Below are positions 12,922 to 64,000 of a stretch of 64,000 nucleotides of DNA, one piece after another. The position numbers and the translations under genes were made by a program. The notes under the pieces were generated by a model. That model saw only the letters and a list, made by a program, of their open reading frames with translations, was not told where the DNA came from and searched no databases. The stretch is from contig JAURXZ010000033.1 of assembly GCA_030654175.1 (NCBI GenBank), positions 1 to 64,000 on the forward strand. Direction: 5' to 3'. Each line of letters begins with the position of its first letter. The stretch's first letter is position 1. The stretch comes from Bacteroidia bacterium (GTDB lineage Bacteria; Bacteroidota; Bacteroidia; 2-12-FULL-35-15).

Positions 12922-14502
12922 ATGAAAAAAGTAAATATACTCCTTTTGTATTTTTTGATATTATTTATATCTCATAATGGATATTCTTTTTCAAAAAAAC
13001 AATTTTCAGTTATCATTGCAGTTCAACCTGGTTTGTTTTATAAAGATTCGGCTTTGGCTTTGCCATATTATTCTGCAGGGATCATGAAAAGTAATTCAAA
13101 GGATTATGCTGAAGCCATTATTTGTTTCAAGAAAGCGCTGGAATTCGATTCCACTTATGCTTCCACCTATTTGAACATGGCCTTTGCAAAACGTAGTCTT
13201 TTAGATTATAAAAGCGCTTTAAATGATTATAACAGTGCTCTTCAATTGAAACTAACCTGGGAGGAGTCGTATGAAGCATATTTTAATAAATCACTAACAA
13301 TGGCATTACTTGAAAATTTGCAAGATGCCATGGCTGAATCAAATTACCCTATACTATTAAAGAAGGAATATTCCGATTTTACCAGCAATTCAACAGCAAG
13401 CTTAAACAATTCTCCCCCTTCAGTTTTGAAAGATTCCGCTTCGGCATTTCCATATTTTTCCGCTGGAGTTTTAAAAAACAATTCCAAAGAATATGTGGAT
13501 GCTATTGTTTGTTTTACAAAGGCCCTGGAACACGATCCAACTTTAGCCTCTGCTTATTTAAACAGGGCTTATGCAAAAAACAAACTATTGGATTACAAAA
13601 GCGCATTATCAGATTATTCAAAAGCACTACAATTGAAACTCACATGGGAGGAGTCATATGAAGCTCATTTTAATAAAGGACTCACTTTGGCCTTATTAGA
13701 AAATTTGAAAGAAGCCATGGCAGATTTTAATTATGCAATAAAATTAAATCCGGAATATACAGATGCCTATTATAACAGAAGTATACTGAAAGGGAAAGTA
13801 GGGGATCTTCATGGAGAATTGTCGGATATAAATAAAGTACTCTCTTTAAGGCCCGCTGATGCAGACGCATTTAACAGTAGAGGGATATTAAAATCCAAAC
13901 AGGGGGATTATGACGAGGCTATTAAGGATTTTAATCGTGCTATAGAGTTAAATAAAACAAACAGCCATTTCTATTTCAATCGGGCATTAATTCTATATGG
14001 ATTGAACGAATACCGCGCATCCTTAGTTGATTTTGACATATCTATTCGAATTGAGCCGGATGCAGAAACGTTTAATAGAAGAGGGAATGTAAAAGCAAGA
14101 TTGGGAGATTTTCGTGGAGCATTTGATGATTATACAGCTGCAATAAAAACAGATACAAATTATTACATAGCTTACCTGAACCGGGGTTACTTAAAATATG
14201 AATTGAAAGATTATAATTCATCTATTGTTGATTATACAATTGCTATTAAATTGAAACCAGATTATTCAATAGCTTATTATAACCGTGGTTTGGCCAAAGG
14301 TAAACTTGCAGATCATAAAGGTGAGATCAAAGATTACACATTGGCAATTGAATTTAGACCGGATTATGAAAAGGCTTATAACCAAAGAGCTATGGCTAAA
14401 TATGAAATAGGAGATAGGTTGGGATGTTGTCAGGATCTTGATAAGGCCATAAAACTCGGATGTGAACTGGCTTATCAAAATGTACATATTTATTGCAAAT
14501 GA
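12922..14502 (+). CDS. Secreted TPR-repeat protein
   Basis: A signal peptide (residues 1-23, LYFLILFISHNGYSFS) precedes about ten tetratricopeptide repeats. Repeat marks are AEAIICFKKALEFDSTYASTYLNMA, YDEAIKDFNRAIELN and NSSIVDYTIAIKLKPDY. Residues about 45-150 and 168-270 are near-copies (KSALNDYNSALQLKLTWEESYEA / KSALSDYSKALQLKLTWEESYEA), so an internal segment was duplicated recently. It should be a periplasmic protein-interaction scaffold; partners unknown. It lies in a run of four plus-strand genes with the outer-membrane-like protein and the GH26-like enzyme. Confidence 0.85.
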   Translation: MKKVNILLLYFLILFISHNGYSFSKKQFSVIIAVQPGLFYKDSALALPYYSAGIMKSNSKDYAEAIICFKKALEFDSTYASTYLNMAFAKRSLLDYKSALNDYNSALQLKLTWEESYEAYFNKSLTMALLENLQDAMAESNYPILLKKEYSDFTSNSTASLNNSPPSVLKDSASAFPYFSAGVLKNNSKEYVDAIVCFTKALEHDPTLASAYLNRAYAKNKLLDYKSALSDYSKALQLKLTWEESYEAHFNKGLTLALLENLKEAMADFNYAIKLNPEYTDAYYNRSILKGKVGDLHGELSDINKVLSLRPADADAFNSRGILKSKQGDYDEAIKDFNRAIELNKTNSHFYFNRALILYGLNEYRASLVDFDISIRIEPDAETFNRRGNVKARLGDFRGAFDDYTAAIKTDTNYYIAYLNRGYLKYELKDYNSSIVDYTIAIKLKPDYSIAYYNRGLAKGKLADHKGEIKDYTLAIEFRPDYEKAYNQRAMAKYEIGDRLGCCQDLDKAIKLGCELAYQNVHIYCK

Positions 14503-57533: not shown

Positions 57534-57690
57534 GAATGAATCCATGTAATTATCATCAAAGCTGAGCTTTTTATTCAACTCCAATTGTCTTATAATTAAT
57601 ATTATAGGAGGGAATAAGTGTCTGAGGGTCAGACCAAAGAAGGGTGAAGAAGTAAACCTTTTAAAAGGTTGCAGTCAATATACAATAAAA

Positions 57691-57719
57691 AAACCATTGC
57701 AAAAATTTAGCAATGGTTT
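57691..57719 (-). terminator. Second terminator of the candidate RNA gene
   Basis: AAACCATTGC pairs with GCAATGGTTT around a nine-base spacer. On the minus strand the stem is followed by a T-run (TTTTTTTATTG), on the plus strand not, so it works mainly on the minus strand, behind the first hairpin. Confidence 0.75.
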
Positions 57720-57737
57720 AAGAACTATTTAAAAATA

Positions 57738-57900
57738 AAAAATGGTGGAAAATTTTCATTTTCCACCAAGCCGACAGTTGAGCGACCGTCCTGGAACAAC
57801 ACTACCCCAACGAGAGAAAGTAATGCCAAAATATCTATGTTTGTAAGTGTTTTCAATATTCCGTTGTATTAAAAAAATGGCTTTAATCTTAAAATGCTCG
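57738..57900 (-). ncRNA. Candidate small non-coding RNA (about 160 nt)
   Basis: On the minus strand a complete promoter (TTG, 18 bases, TATATTTG) is followed by about 160 bases with no credible reading frame. A hairpin of GACGGT with ACTGTC (six pairs, one G-U) lies in the GC-richer 3' half. A ten-pair hairpin (57743-57768) then leads into a T-rich run (TTTTTTATTTTT). A second terminator follows. This is the arrangement of a well-expressed small RNA gene. Its size is close to that of 6S RNA, but I do not recognise a 6S, tmRNA, SRP or RNase P core, so the class stays open. Confidence 0.65.
57743..57768 (-). terminator. First terminator of the candidate RNA gene
   Basis: TGGTGGAAAA pairs perfectly with TTTTCCACCA around a six-base loop. 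On the minus strand it is followed by TTTTTTATTTTT, a classic intrinsic terminator. Confidence 0.85.
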
Positions 57901-57903
57901 ATG

Positions 57904-57932
57904 CAAATATAAAACTTTTTTGATTCCTGCAA
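57904..57932 (-). promoter_or_regulatory. Promoter of the candidate RNA gene
   Basis: TTG (57930-57932), an 18-base spacer and TATATTTG (57904-57911), all on the minus strand: a full Bacteroidota promoter. No protein start follows within 150 bases. Confidence 0.7.
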
Positions 57933-58105
57933 TAATTTTTATCATTTTTTTTAGTGATGCAGATCAACTTTGCAAGGCAGAATGTTTGTTTTTTTACGAA
58001 TAACGTTAAGTTCCTTTGTGTTTTTTGTTGGTATTTCTTAGTATTTCTTAGTTTAATTATCCATTTGTAAGTATTTGTTACCGTTTATTTAAGTTCGCTT
58101 ACATT

Positions 58106-60061
58106 TTATATCATTATCCCCAAAATTGTCACATCATCAACCTGTTCCAAGCTGCCTTTCCAACCATTAAATTCTGTTTGTAATGCTTTTCCTTGTTCAT
58201 TCAATGGTAAGTTACAGATTGCGGAAAGATTGTCTTTAAATTTCTTGTACATAAATTTCTTTCCTTTAGGACCGCCAAACTGATCTGCATATCCATCTGT
58301 TAATAAATAGAAAAGTGAATTTTCGGAATAGGTAATATTGTGAGTTGTAAAAGGTTTTCTGTTATCGCATAGTCCTATTGGTTGTTTATCAGCTTTTATC
58401 TCAAGCATAGTGCCGTTTTGAATGTAACATAATGGATTGTTTGCTCCACTCCACTGTATTTGGTTATTTCCTTTGTTGTATGCAAGTATTGAAATGTCCA
58501 TTCCATCCTTTACATCGGAATCACTTTTTTCAAATGTTTCTAAGACAAGATCAGTAACTTTATCAAGAATGGTTCCGGTATCACGCAAACCAAATTCTTT
58601 TACTGCCCGGTTTAATGCGTTACTACATACAACACTCATCATTGCTCCCGGTACTCCATGTCCTGTGCAATCCGCAGCTGCAATAAATTGAATATTATCC
58701 ATTATTTCCATCCAGTAAAAATCACCTGCAACCACATCTTTAGGGTTGTACAATATGAAACTTTCAGGAAACTGTTTTTTAATTGAAGGAATAGGAGGTA
58801 AGATAGCTTCCTGCAAACGTTTTGCATACGTAATGGAAGAAATGATTTCTTTTTGATGTTCTTCTACTATTTGTTTTTGTTGTTCAATAACGATCTTTTG
58901 TTTTTTTGTTACCCGGAGCGAACGAAAAATAAAACCTGCAAATACCATCACCATTAATAAGCCGCTTGCAACCGAAAATGTAATGATTTTTTGTTTGCGG
59001 TTTTCTCCTTCTGCTATTGCTTTGGTAATTGCTTCTTTTTTCTCAAATTCAAAATTCATTTCTTTACGAACCAATTGCTTTTTATTCTCCTGGCTAAAAA
59101 GGGTATCTTTTAATGCTATTGCTTTTTTGTAATGGATGAGCGCTAATTGATATTGGCCAGTTGTATCATATAGTTCGGAGAGCATTTGCTCTAATTGTCT
59201 TAACATATCAAAAGCGCCAACACTATCATTGATAGCAATTGCTTTTTTAAAATATAGTTCGGCCTCTTTATATTTCCCAAAATCAGTATAGAAAGTTCCA
59301 ATATTGCCCAATAGCCCCGCAATGAGATATTTATCTTTGAGTTCTTTCGCGATCTCCAATCCTTTAAAACTATATTCAATGGCTGAGGGAAAATCTCTTC
59401 TCAGATAATATATACTTCCGATGTTCGCCAGTTGGATCCCAATTAATTTTTTATCTCCAAGTTCTTTTGCGATTTTCAATGTCCTGAAATAATAGTCTAA
59501 CGCTTTGTTAGTTCCTCCTCCATTTTTAATAGCTTCAGCTTTATAAATATTTCCAATGTTTCCGAGGTGCCTTGCAATTGCATTTTTATCTTTCAACTCT
59601 TCAGCTCCACTTAATGCTTTAAAATAGTAGTCTAATGCTTTAGGGTAATCTTCTTGATTTTGGTAGACAATTCCGATATTTCCAAGATGTCTTGCAATAC
59701 TATTTCTATCCCCCAGATCTTCCGCAAATTTTAATGCCTTTAAATAATGATCCAATGCCTTTGGGTAGTTCCCTTGAAAAAGATATACATTACCAAGATT
59801 TCCATTTGAGCCTGAAAGACCTTTTTTAAAATTTAGTTGTTGTGCAAGTTGTAACGCACTATTCCCATAATATAATGCTGAATCATAAAGACCGATATTT
59901 AAGAGTTTTGAGCATAATATATAGGAATGAATCACCTTATTAGTATCGGCCTTATCTTTTTTAATAAGGGAAATCAGGGAATCAACAGGGTTTTGTTGCG
60001 AAAAAGCAATTACCGGAAAAATTAAAACAACTGTGCAGAATATTATTTTTAGATTTTTCAT
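58106..60061 (-). CDS. TPR-repeat SpoIIE-type protein phosphatase
   Basis: Signal peptide (residues 1-21, ending AFSQQ), about seven TPR units (about 30-325, such as YPKALDHYLKALKFAEDLGD and LGNIGNIYKAEA), one membrane helix (about 355-375, IITFSVASGLLMVMVFAGFIF), a coiled coil (380-415) and a cytosolic SpoIIE/PP2C domain (about 440-650). Catalytic marks are AGDFYWMEI, AAADCTGHGVPGAMMSVV and LLTDGYADQFGG. It senses something in the periplasm via TPRs and dephosphorylates a cytosolic target, often an anti-anti-sigma protein; none is adjacent. ATG start and a good promoter (60124-60152). Confidence 0.92.
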   Translation of the reverse strand: MKNLKIIFCTVVLIFPVIAFSQQNPVDSLISLIKKDKADTNKVIHSYILCSKLLNIGLYDSALYYGNSALQLAQQLNFKKGLSGSNGNLGNVYLFQGNYPKALDHYLKALKFAEDLGDRNSIARHLGNIGIVYQNQEDYPKALDYYFKALSGAEELKDKNAIARHLGNIGNIYKAEAIKNGGGTNKALDYYFRTLKIAKELGDKKLIGIQLANIGSIYYLRRDFPSAIEYSFKGLEIAKELKDKYLIAGLLGNIGTFYTDFGKYKEAELYFKKAIAINDSVGAFDMLRQLEQMLSELYDTTGQYQLALIHYKKAIALKDTLFSQENKKQLVRKEMNFEFEKKEAITKAIAEGENRKQKIITFSVASGLLMVMVFAGFIFRSLRVTKKQKIVIEQQKQIVEEHQKEIISSITYAKRLQEAILPPIPSIKKQFPESFILYNPKDVVAGDFYWMEIMDNIQFIAAADCTGHGVPGAMMSVVCSNALNRAVKEFGLRDTGTILDKVTDLVLETFEKSDSDVKDGMDISILAYNKGNNQIQWSGANNPLCYIQNGTMLEIKADKQPIGLCDNRKPFTTHNITYSENSLFYLLTDGYADQFGGPKGKKFMYKKFKDNLSAICNLPLNEQGKALQTEFNGWKGSLEQVDDVTILGIMI

Positions 60062-60123
60062 AGCGTATATTTTTATATTTTATTGATAATCAAATAGTTG
60101 CAAATTGCGTGCCACAATTATAC

Positions 60124-60152
60124 AAATATAAAAAATTCTCTTATAATTCAAA
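60124..60152 (-). promoter_or_regulatory. Promoter of the TPR-SpoIIE gene
   Basis: On the minus strand TTTG (60149-60152), 17 bases, TATATTTG (60124-60131); about 60 bases before the ATG. It stands almost back to back with the methylase promoter at 60158-60189. Confidence 0.65.
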
Positions 60153-60157
60153 TTTTA

Positions 60158-60189
60158 TTTGGAGATACAGTAAAAAATGATTCACTTTG
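60158..60189 (+). promoter_or_regulatory. Likely promoter of the DNA methylase gene
   Basis: TTTG (60158-60161), 20 bases, TCACTTTG (60182-60189, one mismatch to TAnnTTTG). The -7 box ends only four bases before the ATG at 60194, so the transcript would be leaderless or nearly so. Confidence 0.5.
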
Positions 60190-60193
60190 CTGA

Positions 60194-60874
60194 ATGAAAA
60201 ATTATCCCGGACAAAAGAAAATCTATGGTTTGTATCATAAAATAATTAATCAAATCCCGAAGCATCAAAATTATTATGAAGTATTTGCAGGTAGTGGTGC
60301 TATTGCAGCATTATTAATTGAAAAGAACTCAAGTGCAAAATTCTATTTGAATGACATTGATGGATCCGTTACAGATAAATTAAGCTGTACCTTCCGGCAA
60401 GCGAAGGTTTCCAAAATAGATGCTACAAAACTTTTAAACAAATTAATGGCAGCTGATACAGATACTTTTATCTTTATGGACCCGCCATATTTACATAGTA
60501 CACGACCTAATAATACAAAACTCTATAAACACGAAATGACAGATTATGATCATAAACAGTTACTTTCATCTGTACTGCAGTTAGATTGTAATGTAATGAT
60601 TGTGCATCCAGTTTGTGAACTTTATGATACATGGCTAAAGGGATGGCGCAAAGTTTTAATAAAAGTACGATACCACAACAAAATGTCTTTAGAATGCTTG
60701 TATATGAATTATGACCTTCCTGAACAATTACAGGTTGATGCGTTTTTGGGAACTGATTGTTGGGACAGGCAACGAATAAAAAGAAAGGCAACAAGTTTGG
60801 TAAATAAATTGATTGCGCTCCCTGAGCTTGAGCGCAATTATATAATTAGAAGAGTCCAGGAGAATTTTGCGTAG
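60194..60874 (+). CDS. D12-class DNA adenine N6-methyltransferase
   Basis: Transfers methyl groups to adenine in DNA. The SAM-binding motif is YYEVFAGSGAIAALL (about residues 28-42) and the catalytic motif FMDPPYLH (DPPY, about 96-101), in the order of the D12/Dam class. Length 226 is short for Dam (about 270), so the target-recognition part is reduced; the recognition site cannot be predicted. It has no restriction endonuclease partner here. Solitary methylases of this kind are frequent in phages and mobile elements, which fits the genes to its right. Start at ATG 60194, directly after a promoter. Confidence 0.85.
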   Translation: MKNYPGQKKIYGLYHKIINQIPKHQNYYEVFAGSGAIAALLIEKNSSAKFYLNDIDGSVTDKLSCTFRQAKVSKIDATKLLNKLMAADTDTFIFMDPPYLHSTRPNNTKLYKHEMTDYDHKQLLSSVLQLDCNVMIVHPVCELYDTWLKGWRKVLIKVRYHNKMSLECLYMNYDLPEQLQVDAFLGTDCWDRQRIKRKATSLVNKLIALPELERNYIIRRVQENFA

Positions 60875-60910
60875 CATATTTTTTGAATTCAGTACACTAA
60901 TTATTTTTTT

Positions 60911-60941
60911 TTGGTTGTTGCATAAATATATGTATATTTGT
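60911..60941 (+). promoter_or_regulatory. Strong promoter of a short transcript
   Basis: TTTG (60911-60914), exactly 19 bases, then TATATTTG (60934-60941): a perfect Bacteroidota promoter. It points away from the methylase gene towards a terminator at 61020-61044, and no normal-sized gene lies between. Confidence 0.75.
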
Positions 60942-60946
60942 ACAAC

Positions 60947-61050
60947 ATCAAGCGTGAACTTGCTGGTTTATTGAAAAAAAGAAGTAAAGATGAGCAGGCC
61001 CGCTCTTATACAATTAAAAAAAGCTCCCGAAATTCGGGAGCTTTTTTTTG
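60947..61050 (+). ncRNA. Candidate small RNA (about 100 nt)
   Basis: A perfect promoter (60911-60941) and a strong terminator (61020-61044) enclose about 100 bases. The middle can form a hairpin of GAGC with GCTC (near 60990-61005). A 35-codon frame beginning MSRPALIQLKK at 60990 runs through the terminator and is unlikely to be translated. The class of RNA is not recognised; as it lies beside a mobile-element region, a role in control of the element is possible. Confidence 0.55.
61020..61044. terminator. Bidirectional terminator
   Basis: GCTCCCGAA and TTCGGGAGC with a single-base loop, extended by A's before and eight T's after. It can end both the short plus-strand transcript and the minus-strand ATPase gene that stops at 61089. 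Confidence 0.9.
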
Positions 61051-61088
61051 TGGCCGGTAAAGTAATTTTTGTATGTACCGGATCTGAA

Positions 61089-62915
61089 TTAAAATAATTT
61101 GATTTCGGCTTTTCCTCCCCAACGATTTTTCTGCTCTAAGGTAGATGCTATACCATTTCCGCAATAGATGAATGTATCTACCTCATTGCGCCACTTACCA
61201 TCACCTGCGTAATCTCCGGATTTCGTACCTTGGGAGGTAATGATCCAAATTTTATCCGGATACGAATCACGAAGTTTTTTAAATTCTGATGAATGTTTAA
61301 TGTTAGCACTTTCCTTGCTATCAATTACTATTAAATCAAAATTGGCAATAGGTAAAGTACTTAAGGACTTTACAATTTTGAAATTTTCACCGCCCGAAAT
61401 ATTTACTTCTTTTAGTAGTTCCGTAAATGTCGGTGTGCCATATTGCTCTCCTGCTGCATATAATACTGAATGTTTCAATCTGTACAACTCATCCGCTAAT
61501 TCCAGTGACAAACCTGATTTTCCCGAACCGCCATTTCCATATATGAAAATAGAAGTAGGACCGCAAGCCCTACCAATTAATTGTAAAAATTTTCCGGTAA
61601 ACCCAATTTCCTTAAATGTTTCATTTTTCACATCAGATACGCTCATTACTTCGGGTTCAGCCCCTGAAAGGTTATCTTTCTTTTTGCTCAAATGATGGCT
61701 TGTAATTGCCTGTATTGCTCCACCTGCTGCTGCTGTTAAAAGTGCAGGAATGAAACCTAATCCAGCGATATTCACTTTAAAATTACGCGGAAATTTATTT
61801 CTTAAAAAACCGATAGTTGAACGCTCTATCGCCTCTTTCATATCATGTATTTTTTTTCCGGAAAAGTCTTCTATTTCCCCATATTTATTCATTCTTTCTG
61901 TTACATTTTTTATTGCTTCTTTATATTCCTCACTTGCCATAGCTTCCACTACTAATTTATGAAACTTATTACTGGGAGATATATCCAACCCTAAGCCTTG
62001 TAATCCATTCAATTCAGTATCAGTAAAGTTTTTCAATGTTGCATTTTTATTTTGCAATACATCAACCTGTTGAATATAATCATTAAGGTTATTTGATGCA
62101 ACTGCGGTATATTTAAAATACTTATCATTTTTCCAAACATTATCATCGTACCACTTTTGCAATAAATCTCTTAACCTAATTGCCTTATCAAGTATTCCGG
62201 TTTTATTTTGCAAACCAACATACCGTTTTAATAACTGAATTGAACTCATAGGCACAACTCCGGTTGCAATATTGGTATAACGCTCCAATTGTAATTTCTC
62301 AATTTTAATGTCGAATATTTTAACATCGTGTTTTAATGCCCCTAAGAGAGAATCCTGAATCTGCATAACCTCTTTACCATAAACTGAATTTTTGTTTACC
62401 CTGCGCTCTAAAATAGCCTTTTGGATGGATTTTAACAGACTATATAGTTGATCTCGTGTTTTCTGTTTGTCGTGGAAATTGATATAACGTTTAATTAATG
62501 TTATTTCATCGTCTAAACGCTCTACCTGAAATGCTGAATTGCTCTTTTTTGATTCTTTTTTTGGCTTGGTGGTTTTTTGTGCGTGTTTTACAATTTCTTT
62601 CTCAGGAGATCTTGCTTCTACAATAGATTGTTTTTCAACCGGCTTTGGTTTAACAACAAATATTCTTTGCTCTGCCTTTTTTGAAGTGGGAGAGGTCGCC
62701 TTTGCTGCCGGAACCGATGGCTTTTTATATTGCGATAATTTATCGAAATACAAATCAATCATTCGCTTAATTTTTTGATTGGAATTATACATAGTCCAAT
62801 TACTACCACTTTGCGTAACCTTCGCTACAAAATCGTGGCTCGTTTTAAATGTATCGGGTAAGTTCTCTATCCCGATCTCCTTCGTTTTTGCGAAATAATT
62901 TTTGTGTGTTATCAT
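61089..62915 (-). CDS. RecA/RadA-like ATPase of a mobile element
   Basis: A 608-residue protein. The N-terminal ~65 residues (FDKLSQYK-type end; SGSNWTMYNSNQKIKRMIDLYF) look like a small domain of polyvalent mobile-element proteins. A Lys/Pro-rich linker (65-125) and a long helical region (130-400) follow. A hydrophobic Ala/Gly stretch lies near 395-410 (LGFIPALLTAAAGGAI). The C-terminal domain (about 430-608) is a RecA-type ATPase with Walker A GNGGSGKS near residue 460, Walker B DLIVIDS and the RadA-like end (SQGTKSGDYAGDGKWRNEVDTFIYC). Probably involved in element replication or recombination. The gene shares strand and order with the polyvalent protein to its right. Confidence 0.65.
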   Translation of the reverse strand: MITHKNYFAKTKEIGIENLPDTFKTSHDFVAKVTQSGSNWTMYNSNQKIKRMIDLYFDKLSQYKKPSVPAAKATSPTSKKAEQRIFVVKPKPVEKQSIVEARSPEKEIVKHAQKTTKPKKESKKSNSAFQVERLDDEITLIKRYINFHDKQKTRDQLYSLLKSIQKAILERRVNKNSVYGKEVMQIQDSLLGALKHDVKIFDIKIEKLQLERYTNIATGVVPMSSIQLLKRYVGLQNKTGILDKAIRLRDLLQKWYDDNVWKNDKYFKYTAVASNNLNDYIQQVDVLQNKNATLKNFTDTELNGLQGLGLDISPSNKFHKLVVEAMASEEYKEAIKNVTERMNKYGEIEDFSGKKIHDMKEAIERSTIGFLRNKFPRNFKVNIAGLGFIPALLTAAAGGAIQAITSHHLSKKKDNLSGAEPEVMSVSDVKNETFKEIGFTGKFLQLIGRACGPTSIFIYGNGGSGKSGLSLELADELYRLKHSVLYAAGEQYGTPTFTELLKEVNISGGENFKIVKSLSTLPIANFDLIVIDSKESANIKHSSEFKKLRDSYPDKIWIITSQGTKSGDYAGDGKWRNEVDTFIYCGNGIASTLEQKNRWGGKAEIKLF

Positions 62916-62991
62916 AGTTATTTTTTTTTGATTCGTTGATTCGTCTGTTTTTTTCCTGTATTCGTAGATTTTTTCCGGTTTTTTTTATGTG

Positions 62992-64000
62992 TTACAATTC
63001 CATTAATTCCAATTCCAACATCAATGCTTCAGCCTCCAGTTCCATTTCAATTGCATCAGGAACAAATGGCTTTGATTTGTTTACTTTCAATATTACTTCC
63101 TCCTGGCCCTGAGATTTTTTAAACGCTTCTACATCTTTTTTTATCACATCAAAAATATTTTGATTGACCGTTACTGAGGTGTTAAATTTATTTTGCAAAA
63201 TATCAATGAACTTGTCAATGTTTTGATGCTCTACATAAGCTCTCATAGTGTCGCTTATCAGATCAAAATTGTTATTATTCACAACTTCCAAAATCTCTTT
63301 GTTAAGAAACAACCAACCGCCTTGTTTCTTCGTGCCTTTTACCATTACCACCAAATCCCCTTTGATATTCATGGTAAGTGAAACATTGTTGGTAGTAGAA
63401 ACTATTGCACCCGGCTGAACACTTTTGATGTATTTTTTTGCAGCTCCGATTGGAACGGTTACTTTGTTTGCGTTTTCTCCAATTTCCGGATTATAGTTTT
63501 CAGGTAAATAAATTCCTTTTAATATCTCTCCTTTTTTAAGAGTTGTATAACTGATCAGTTTTCCTTTGGTGGTTGAAAATGCCTGTAATAGATTTCCTGT
63601 AACAATGTACCGGATATTACGATTCACATTTTTAGTCTTAACTATTTCGTCCCAATTTTCTAAAATAGATCTGCTTTCATTGGAGGTTAGATTTGTAGAA
63701 GCTCCAATGATAGATTGCAGCTTTAATCCGGTTTCTCCGGATGCAGGTAATTCAATGTATTTATTGCTATCTCCTAATGCGAATTTAAAACCTACCGAAC
63801 TTGGCGCGTAAGGATTTTTACGGTTAAGATCAATTTCTATTCCTAAAAATATGGCTTTTGTAAATGTTTGATTTCCTTCACCAAATGTTATAGATGGATA
63901 GTTTATACCACGTCCTACATAATAGAAATTAAAGAATGACATTAAGTACTGCTTGTTATTTTCGGCTTTAGTTTCAATGTTTTGGCTCTCTTTTGATTTT
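62992..64000 (-). CDS. C-terminal part of a polyvalent (strawberry-notch-like) protein
   Basis: The frame has no stop up to the window edge: codons before the ATG at 63942 read on (KSKESQNIETKAENNKQYL), so this is the C-terminal end of a larger gene whose 5' part is outside. VTGNLLQAFSTTKGKLISYTTLKKGEILKGIYLP and FFNFYYVGRGINYPS match the strawberry-notch helicase C domain seen in large multi-domain phage and conjugative-element proteins, usually joined to methylase or helicase parts. The end is rich in Glu and Leu (EMELEAEALMLELELMEL). With the ATPase and methylase it suggests an integrated element that continues to the right. Confidence 0.65.
   Translation of the reverse strand, partial: KSKESQNIETKAENNKQYLMSFFNFYYVGRGINYPSITFGEGNQTFTKAIFLGIEIDLNRKNPYAPSSVGFKFALGDSNKYIELPASGETGLKLQSIIGASTNLTSNESRSILENWDEIVKTKNVNRNIRYIVTGNLLQAFSTTKGKLISYTTLKKGEILKGIYLPENYNPEIGENANKVTVPIGAAKKYIKSVQPGAIVSTTNNVSLTMNIKGDLVVMVKGTKKQGGWLFLNKEILEVVNNNNFDLISDTMRAYVEHQNIDKFIDILQNKFNTSVTVNQNIFDVIKKDVEAFKKSQGQEEVILKVNKSKPFVPDAIEMELEAEALMLELELMEL

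Follow-up and report, generated by a model that had tools for sequence, protein, structure and literature searches.

A candidate small non-coding RNA gene next to a dif junction at the edge of a prophage-like element in Bacteroidota

On the minus strand of a 64,000-nt stretch of DNA from a Bacteroidia bacterium (the window), we found a short putative transcription unit that we read, with a probability of about one half, as the gene of a prophage-borne, independently transcribed, trans-acting small non-coding RNA, which would probably act by base-pairing through a conserved unpaired region. Judged from the DNA itself, promoter, motif, hairpins, terminators and homologues are in place, the unit adjoins dif inside a bracketed element, and its substitutions lack a protein-coding pattern. 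Among these features, its own promoter and a Rho-independent terminator, both conserved, the lack of coding selection and the compensatory changes in a helix are those by which an independent sRNA is recognized. The RNA gene is probably new, and Rfam has no such family; dif proviruses are already known in Bacteroidota. In what follows, W is the sequence of the window itself, from its own genome (G000), and G004, G015 and G024 are the other genomes that bear homologues.

The promoter that an earlier note on this DNA had read as TTG-N18-TATATTTG was found exactly at 57932-57904 of the minus strand. It is kept in all three homologues with upstream sequence, that is, W, G004 (TTG-N18-TAGATTTG) and G015 (TTG-N19-TAAATTTG); the upstream side of the G024 copy is cut off by the contig edge. 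Taken alone, the pattern is weak evidence, because its four matches in the window, against 2.0 expected, are reached in 13 of 100 shuffles. One further match, at 60123-60151 of the minus strand, lies directly upstream of the TPR-SpoIIE gene. With the usual spacing between such promoters and the start, transcription would begin near 57897. The RNA would thus be transcribed from its own promoter of the Bacteroidota housekeeping type toward the attachment site and be ended by two intrinsic terminators, measuring about 165 nt, or about 210 nt with read-through of T1.

The internal hairpin and the two terminators described earlier were all located. The 5' part of the RNA, about 70 nt, is mostly unpaired and is followed in order by the hairpins P1 and P2 and the terminators T1 and T2 (table 1), with fold z-scores against shuffles of -5.37 for P2 plus T1 and -4.22 for T2. 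The terminator scanner found one terminator, T1 with its U-run at 57768-57743, against 0.7 expected; T2, located at 57719-57691, is missing from its list, probably because of its 9-nt loop. For the 166-nt RNA as a whole, z is -2.74 and 3 of 200 shuffles fold equally well, while the stretch 57860-57773, with T1 left out, is no better than shuffles (z 0.07). The thermodynamic excess is therefore owed mainly to P2 and T1, which does not bear out the description as a strongly expressed, structured RNA. The claim of a GC-richer 3' half agrees with our counts, with a GC content of 0.475 for 57760-57839 compared with 0.200 and 0.237 for the neighbouring 80-base stretches on either side; it is 0.388 in the next stretch further out (57600-57679).

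The 30-nt motif just 5' of P1 is largely unpaired in the 122-nt MFE fold. It contains a weak inverted repeat, AAATA-NAGR-TATTT, which is broken by one mismatch in W, and it could bind a protein as an alternative to base pairing. Downstream of T2, the palindrome core is flanked by longer palindromic arms in three copies (W, G024 and G004), G015 being the exception. A perfect 6-bp hairpin, GTCTGA-CCC-TCAGAC, lies at 57620-57634, after the palindrome and before the dif junction; at the equivalent position, G024 has different small hairpins, as seen by eye.

Table 1. Positions of the features discussed, in window coordinates unless marked otherwise
Feature	Position	Strand	Basis or remark
dif junction at element edge: non-canonical XerC arm, TATTAA, canonical XerD arm	57586..57606	-	pattern and matrix
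Prophage-like element	contig 57607-91922 (34.3 kb); window part 57607..64000	.	direct dif repeats
Perfect palindrome AACCTTTTAAAAGGTT between T2 and dif	57655..57670	.	core TTTTAAAA at the same place in 4/4 homologues
Intrinsic terminator T2: 10-bp stem, U-run	57687..57719	-	folding
43-codon TTG ORF, judged not a gene	57725..57856	-	codon-position counts, G024 stop, overlap with T1
Intrinsic terminator T1: 11-bp stem, GAAA loop, U-run	57733..57768	-	scanner and folding
Hairpin P2, loop CGCUCA	57773..57790	-	folds in W and G004
Hairpin P1, stem 57825-57820 with 57805-57800	57800..57825	-	paired changes among homologues
Conserved 30-nt motif TGAAAANRCNNNNAAAYANAGRTATTTYGR	57826..57855	-	from four homologues; proposed pairing region
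Bacteroidota-type promoter TTG-N18-TATATTTG	57904..57932	-	exact pattern match; kept in G004 and G015
TPR and SpoIIE-type phosphatase gene, cargo adjoining the RNA	58106..60061	-	
D12-class DNA adenine methyltransferase	60194..60874	+	homologue 58% identical neighbours the G004 RNA
608-aa ATPase, first gene of the prophage core	61089..62915	-	homologue on the contig of the G015 RNA

A covariance search with the 4227 families of Rfam 15, including 6S, SRP and RNase P, gave no match at the curated gathering cut-offs anywhere in the window, and ARAGORN found no tRNA or tmRNA, in line with the earlier impression that no known class is represented. When E values up to 10 were admitted, 13 matches fell on the RNA stretch, all far under their cut-offs. 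The best of them was RsaE/RoxS (RF01820), with 25.4 bits against a cut-off of 79, which shares with the candidate the trait of being a small RNA with a 3' terminator; we took it as chance. Based on these three checks, a known RNA family was rejected as the identity of the unit. Nor does the RNA look like a housekeeping RNA of Bacteroidota, because only 4 of 36 genomes of the genus, its own included, carry it, and credible matches among 395 Bacteroidia genomes, searched with stricter filters, appear to be limited to this genus.

A BLAST search of 99 genomes drawn as relatives, its own included, gave a single convincing match outside W, G004:C33:1185-1312 (E 2.8e-8), with an overall identity of 66%. 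At E up to 1, some match was present in 90 of the 99 genomes; nearly all of these were short and were taken as chance, and the match in G019 (E 0.002) lies inside a SusC-like gene. The next-best match in the genus to a covariance model built from W and G004 (R1) was G015:C72:16351-16481, with an E of 0.006 per genome or about 0.2 over the 36 searched. This copy has a promoter, the motif and T2, is similar further downstream as well, and is backed by flanking similarity (1.9e-6 for G015-W in the terminator region, 4.9e-32 for G015-G024 and 8e-15 for G024-W). The copy on G024:C97 came from a search for the motif in which as many as 3 mismatches were allowed. That search returned 22 places in 15 of the 36 genomes and its backwards control 13, so that most of its matches are chance; we accepted no more than four loci as homologues.

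Weaker R1 matches in G002, G010, G020, G021 (two), G022, G024:C122, G027 and G033 were not taken as homologues once their alignments had been inspected, four of the weak matches (L041, L042, L044, L046) being judged also from 401 bases each. A second model, R2, built from all four copies, found only those four in the 36 genomes of the genus, that is, its own training sequences. Among the 395 Bacteroidia genomes, which were run with stricter filters that lose weak matches, R1 at E up to 0.003 returned its own genome and two weak matches, and R2 at E up to 0.01 returned its own genome, G015, G024 and one weak match; none of the three weak matches was credible, those of R1 (G098 and G272) being judged chance on their alignments alone and that of R2 (G057) being a gene start, described below. 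In named genomes, the motif occurs in Bacteroidetes bacterium RIFCSPLOWO2_12_FULL_35_15, isolate 336R_metabinner_73_sub, KT5_bin-767 and one Calothrix. We equate the first three with the G015, G004 and G024 copies, respectively; the Calothrix match was put down to chance after inspection of 501 bases. Pattern scans and protein searches revealed no RNA homologue in viral contigs, and phage and plasmid records gave short matches only.

What is conserved among the homologues is the 30-nt motif and the distal terminator T2, both kept in all four. At the T2 position, each copy has a hairpin and a U-run, although the stem of G004 is wholly different. The 3' half of the RNA differs between W/G004 and G015/G024: T1 is conserved in G004 and absent from G015 and G024 in the alignment, and P2 as such was not seen in the latter two. 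In W and G004, P2 differs in stem sequence and has the loop letters GCUCA in common; it is placed imperfectly in the alignment because of 9 gapped bases.

Comparative folding, proposed in the earlier note, uncovered compensatory changes in the homologous DNA. All six pairs of P1 form in both W and G004, and four of the six are changed on both sides; in G015 and G024, four and three of the six pairs form. Over the 22 named pairs of W and G004, 97.7% of cells are paired, against 34-66% for slid partners, and six of the 22 pairs are changed on both sides, a count reached by 6 of 500 shuffles. For P1 over the four sequences, 79% are paired against at most 67% when slid (a percentage reached by 17 of 500 shuffles), and the four doubly changed pairs are reached by 3 of 500. 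The paired substitutions in P1 are clear only between W and G004, and the signal is weaker with G015 and G024. The proposal of a new small RNA gene thus gains from these changes and from the lack of an Rfam family, while strong expression and overall structure are not borne out.

In W, a XerCD dif site lies 80 bp downstream of the RNA. Neither this adjacent site nor the prophage-like element figured in the earlier note. The site, TATAATATTAATTATAAGACA, has the layout CATAA-TATTAA-TTATAAGACA, which we take to be that of dif by comparison with the E. coli site. Within 2 mismatches it occurs at 25 places in 21 of the 36 genomes, against 5 places for the backwards control, with one copy in 17 genomes and two in four (G000, G015, G019 and G024). 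Cumulative GC skew was computed over 360 kb of a single genome, G008; its maximum falls in the bin that ends at 350,000, 467 bp short of the dif copy at 350,467, which agrees with a dif linked to the terminus. Three of the four homologues have the site or a near copy beyond T2, namely W (table 1), G024:C97:239-259 and G015:C72:16239-16259 (inverted). The statement that the RNA is always at dif was dropped, no dif having been found near the G004 RNA.

The second dif of the own genome is at C5:91923-91943, beyond the window and in the same orientation. We scored both with a matrix built from 17 of the 25 sites, leaving out six from RNA-bearing genomes and two from G019, on which the training sites score 38.8-45.5. 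The near site, beside the RNA, scores 20.3, and the far site scores 43.0, which makes it a full dif; the joined host flanks of the element score 44.2. Direct dif repeats and host flanks that equal dif when joined, the signs of integration at dif by host Xer (IMEX), were thus found for the window element; in G004 no dif was found, and G015 and G024 do not show both ends. Such a pattern of sites would be expected after a foreign circle had inserted into dif, with the RNA as part of the inserted DNA. It is the near site that carries the hybrid-arm argument, since the far one scores 43.0 and its TTATAGGACA arm occurs also in two single-copy genomes. A dif pattern of the TATAATATTAATTATAAGACA type was also found in five IMG/VR viral contigs (L113-L117), of which L116 and L117 have the TTATAGGACA arm; stretches of 1.5-10.6 kb from these 24-48 kb contigs yielded no copy of the RNA. 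On the G015 contig, where no second att was recognised, degenerate dif-like sites near 13603 and 14649 (L105; scores 12 and 16) accompany the main one and were perhaps left by repeated Xer insertions.

The RNA is located just inside the dif-bracketed end of the element, whose genes include an endolysin (phrog_181), an ATPase, a Strawberry-notch-type helicase, methyltransferases and many unassigned ones. Pfam detected no integrase domain in 20 element ORFs, including every listed ORF above 250 aa. The term prophage is inferential, because no terminase, portal or tail gene was found among the ORFs tested. A collinear core is present in G015 from 35.9 kb on; 16 minus-strand ORFs gave blastp matches with identities of 31-85%, the top value being that of the helicase, and one match spans only 33 residues. 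Between the RNA and this core (G015:C72:16.7-35.8 kb; L072, L105, L154), G015 carries AbiEi, a Xer-like recombinase, AbiEii, type I RM genes, KwaB, IetA, IetS and TmtA, the last in two pieces; PADLOC matched 9 of the 10 proteins submitted. The recombinase gene sets this element apart from that of W, with its integrase-free tested ORFs. In W, the same interval holds the TPR-SpoIIE phosphatase and the D12 methyltransferase. The RNA thus stands between the attachment site and cargo that varies from one element to another. G004, with no nearby dif, and G015, with no recognised second att, are exceptions to this tidy picture.

The main rivals of a trans-acting sRNA are an att-side insulator and an mRNA for a tiny peptide. 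As to the latter, the earlier figure of about 160 non-coding bases was right in length but overlooked the 43-codon TTG ORF, although this does not look conserved as a protein. A short mRNA for a tiny prophage peptide with a hydrophobic stretch (43 aa in W, 45 aa in G004), starting at TTG or ATG about 40 nt past the promoter, would account for a frame that is open in W and G004, for a length difference that keeps the frame and for a BLASTP identity of 55%. The 5' layout is moreover like that of ordinary Bacteroidota genes: a rejected match in G057 proved to be the start of a lipoprotein-like gene with the same promoter-plus-TGAAAA arrangement, which calls for caution with the 5' pattern. Nevertheless, we consider a peptide mRNA unlikely. 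Substitutions in the ORF frame are distributed by codon position as 12/15/10 (W-G004) and 9/7/5 (G015-G024), with no third-position excess in these two sequence pairs; G024 has an in-frame stop at codon 15 and the G015 frame ends after 31 codons; the start is TTG in three of the four copies; the ORF crosses T1; and another frame is, by eye, about equally similar between W and G004. Given the codon positions, the G024 stop and the G015 shortening, the BLASTP identity seems to follow from similarity of the DNA. Protein coding was rejected as the primary reading for want of a third-position excess and because of the early G024 stop, and, with no protein-coding selection on the ORF, the RNA is most likely non-coding.

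It is doubtful, in turn, that the unit is a transcription insulator or other DNA-level accessory of the attachment site, protecting or regulating Xer recombination while the RNA itself has no function. Such a role would suit the RNA 3' end, which faces dif from about 80-90 bp away in three of four cases, the persistence of T2 through complete replacement of its stem in G004, and the TTTTAAAA core that follows T2 in all four copies. However, a terminator has no need of a conserved promoter and a 30-nt motif upstream, and the unit persists in G004 where no dif is detectable. Decay offers another account, in which the unit is a remnant with no current function; the G024 copy, with its weak P1 and its place at a contig edge, and the G015 contig, on which no second att was recognised, fit it, whereas the persistence of promoter, motif and terminators between W and G004 at 66% overall identity makes it quite improbable. 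The trans-acting sRNA that we favour has counterpoints of its own, namely that there are four homologues only, that P1 is weak in G024 (3/6), that the 3' halves differ, that the 5' layout recurs at the G057 gene start, that no dif was found near the G004 RNA and that the search for targets described next gave none that was concordant.

Base-pairing sRNAs commonly have such a layout, with a conserved and largely unpaired segment ahead of a hairpin and terminators. If the RNA acts in trans, it might pair through the conserved, mostly single-stranded 30 nt that precede P1, which together with the terminator stem would stabilise it. Its targets, during lysogeny, may be transcripts of the host or of a co-resident phage, and the two terminators in a row may also keep transcription from crossing the dif junction. 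Among the translation-start regions of the 16 shared prophage core genes, no antisense target was concordant in W and G015, the best one in W having a z of -3.23 and its G015 counterpart -0.23. A more specific notion, that the RNA belongs to a family dedicated to the edge of dif prophages with a hotspot of defence cargo, where it would mark the att-side border of the cargo, regulate lysogeny or cargo, and travel with Xer-integrated prophages in one Bacteroidota lineage, strikes us as rather unlikely. Should the RNA act, it would give an entry to how dif-integrated Bacteroidota prophages control lysogeny or the defence genes they carry.

Compared by general traits rather than by sequence, the candidate shares with prophage-encoded trans-acting sRNAs its own promoter, hairpins, an intrinsic terminator and an integrated phage-like carrier, but it has no Rfam match and sits directly at dif. 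By the same kind of comparison, it recalls the packaging RNA of phi29, which is likewise structured and encoded at the terminus of a phage genome; in our case, however, that terminus is an attachment site, the 3' half of the RNA is not kept from one element to another, and no feature points to packaging. No RNA of this kind appeared in the titles and abstract openings searched, which leave subscription journals mostly outside and are no proof of absence. A host RNA acting on CTXphi is described in PMC13250501, and noncoding RNA is mentioned in the context of viral satellites in PMC7567579.

Prediction of dif in Bacteroidetes is treated in PMC3025954, and proviruses at dif are known in Bacteroidota from passages on microvirus-related ones (PMC3091885) and on PhiCjT23-like prophages (PMC9719478). 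According to these passages, they have in common with our element the Bacteroidota hosts, the dif-like flanks and an inferred use of the host XerC/XerD. BMV1 (6.3 kb) and PhiCjT23 (about 8 kb) are, however, small proviruses of the ssDNA type, whereas the present element has 34 kb and other genes, and the passages describe no such RNA. Our data also point to a type of 34-kb dif-integrated element. One of its proteins, of 237 aa (L161, G000:C5:76023-76733), is 71% identical in G015 and has four copies in its own genome. That it is capsid-like is a guess only, because a PDB sequence search gave E values of 0.076 or worse; the predicted fold was too poor (pLDDT 46). With no Pfam or PHROG match and relatives (including L162-L172) in 36 of the 395 Bacteroidia genomes, this protein is perhaps the trace of a widespread, unnamed family of elements.
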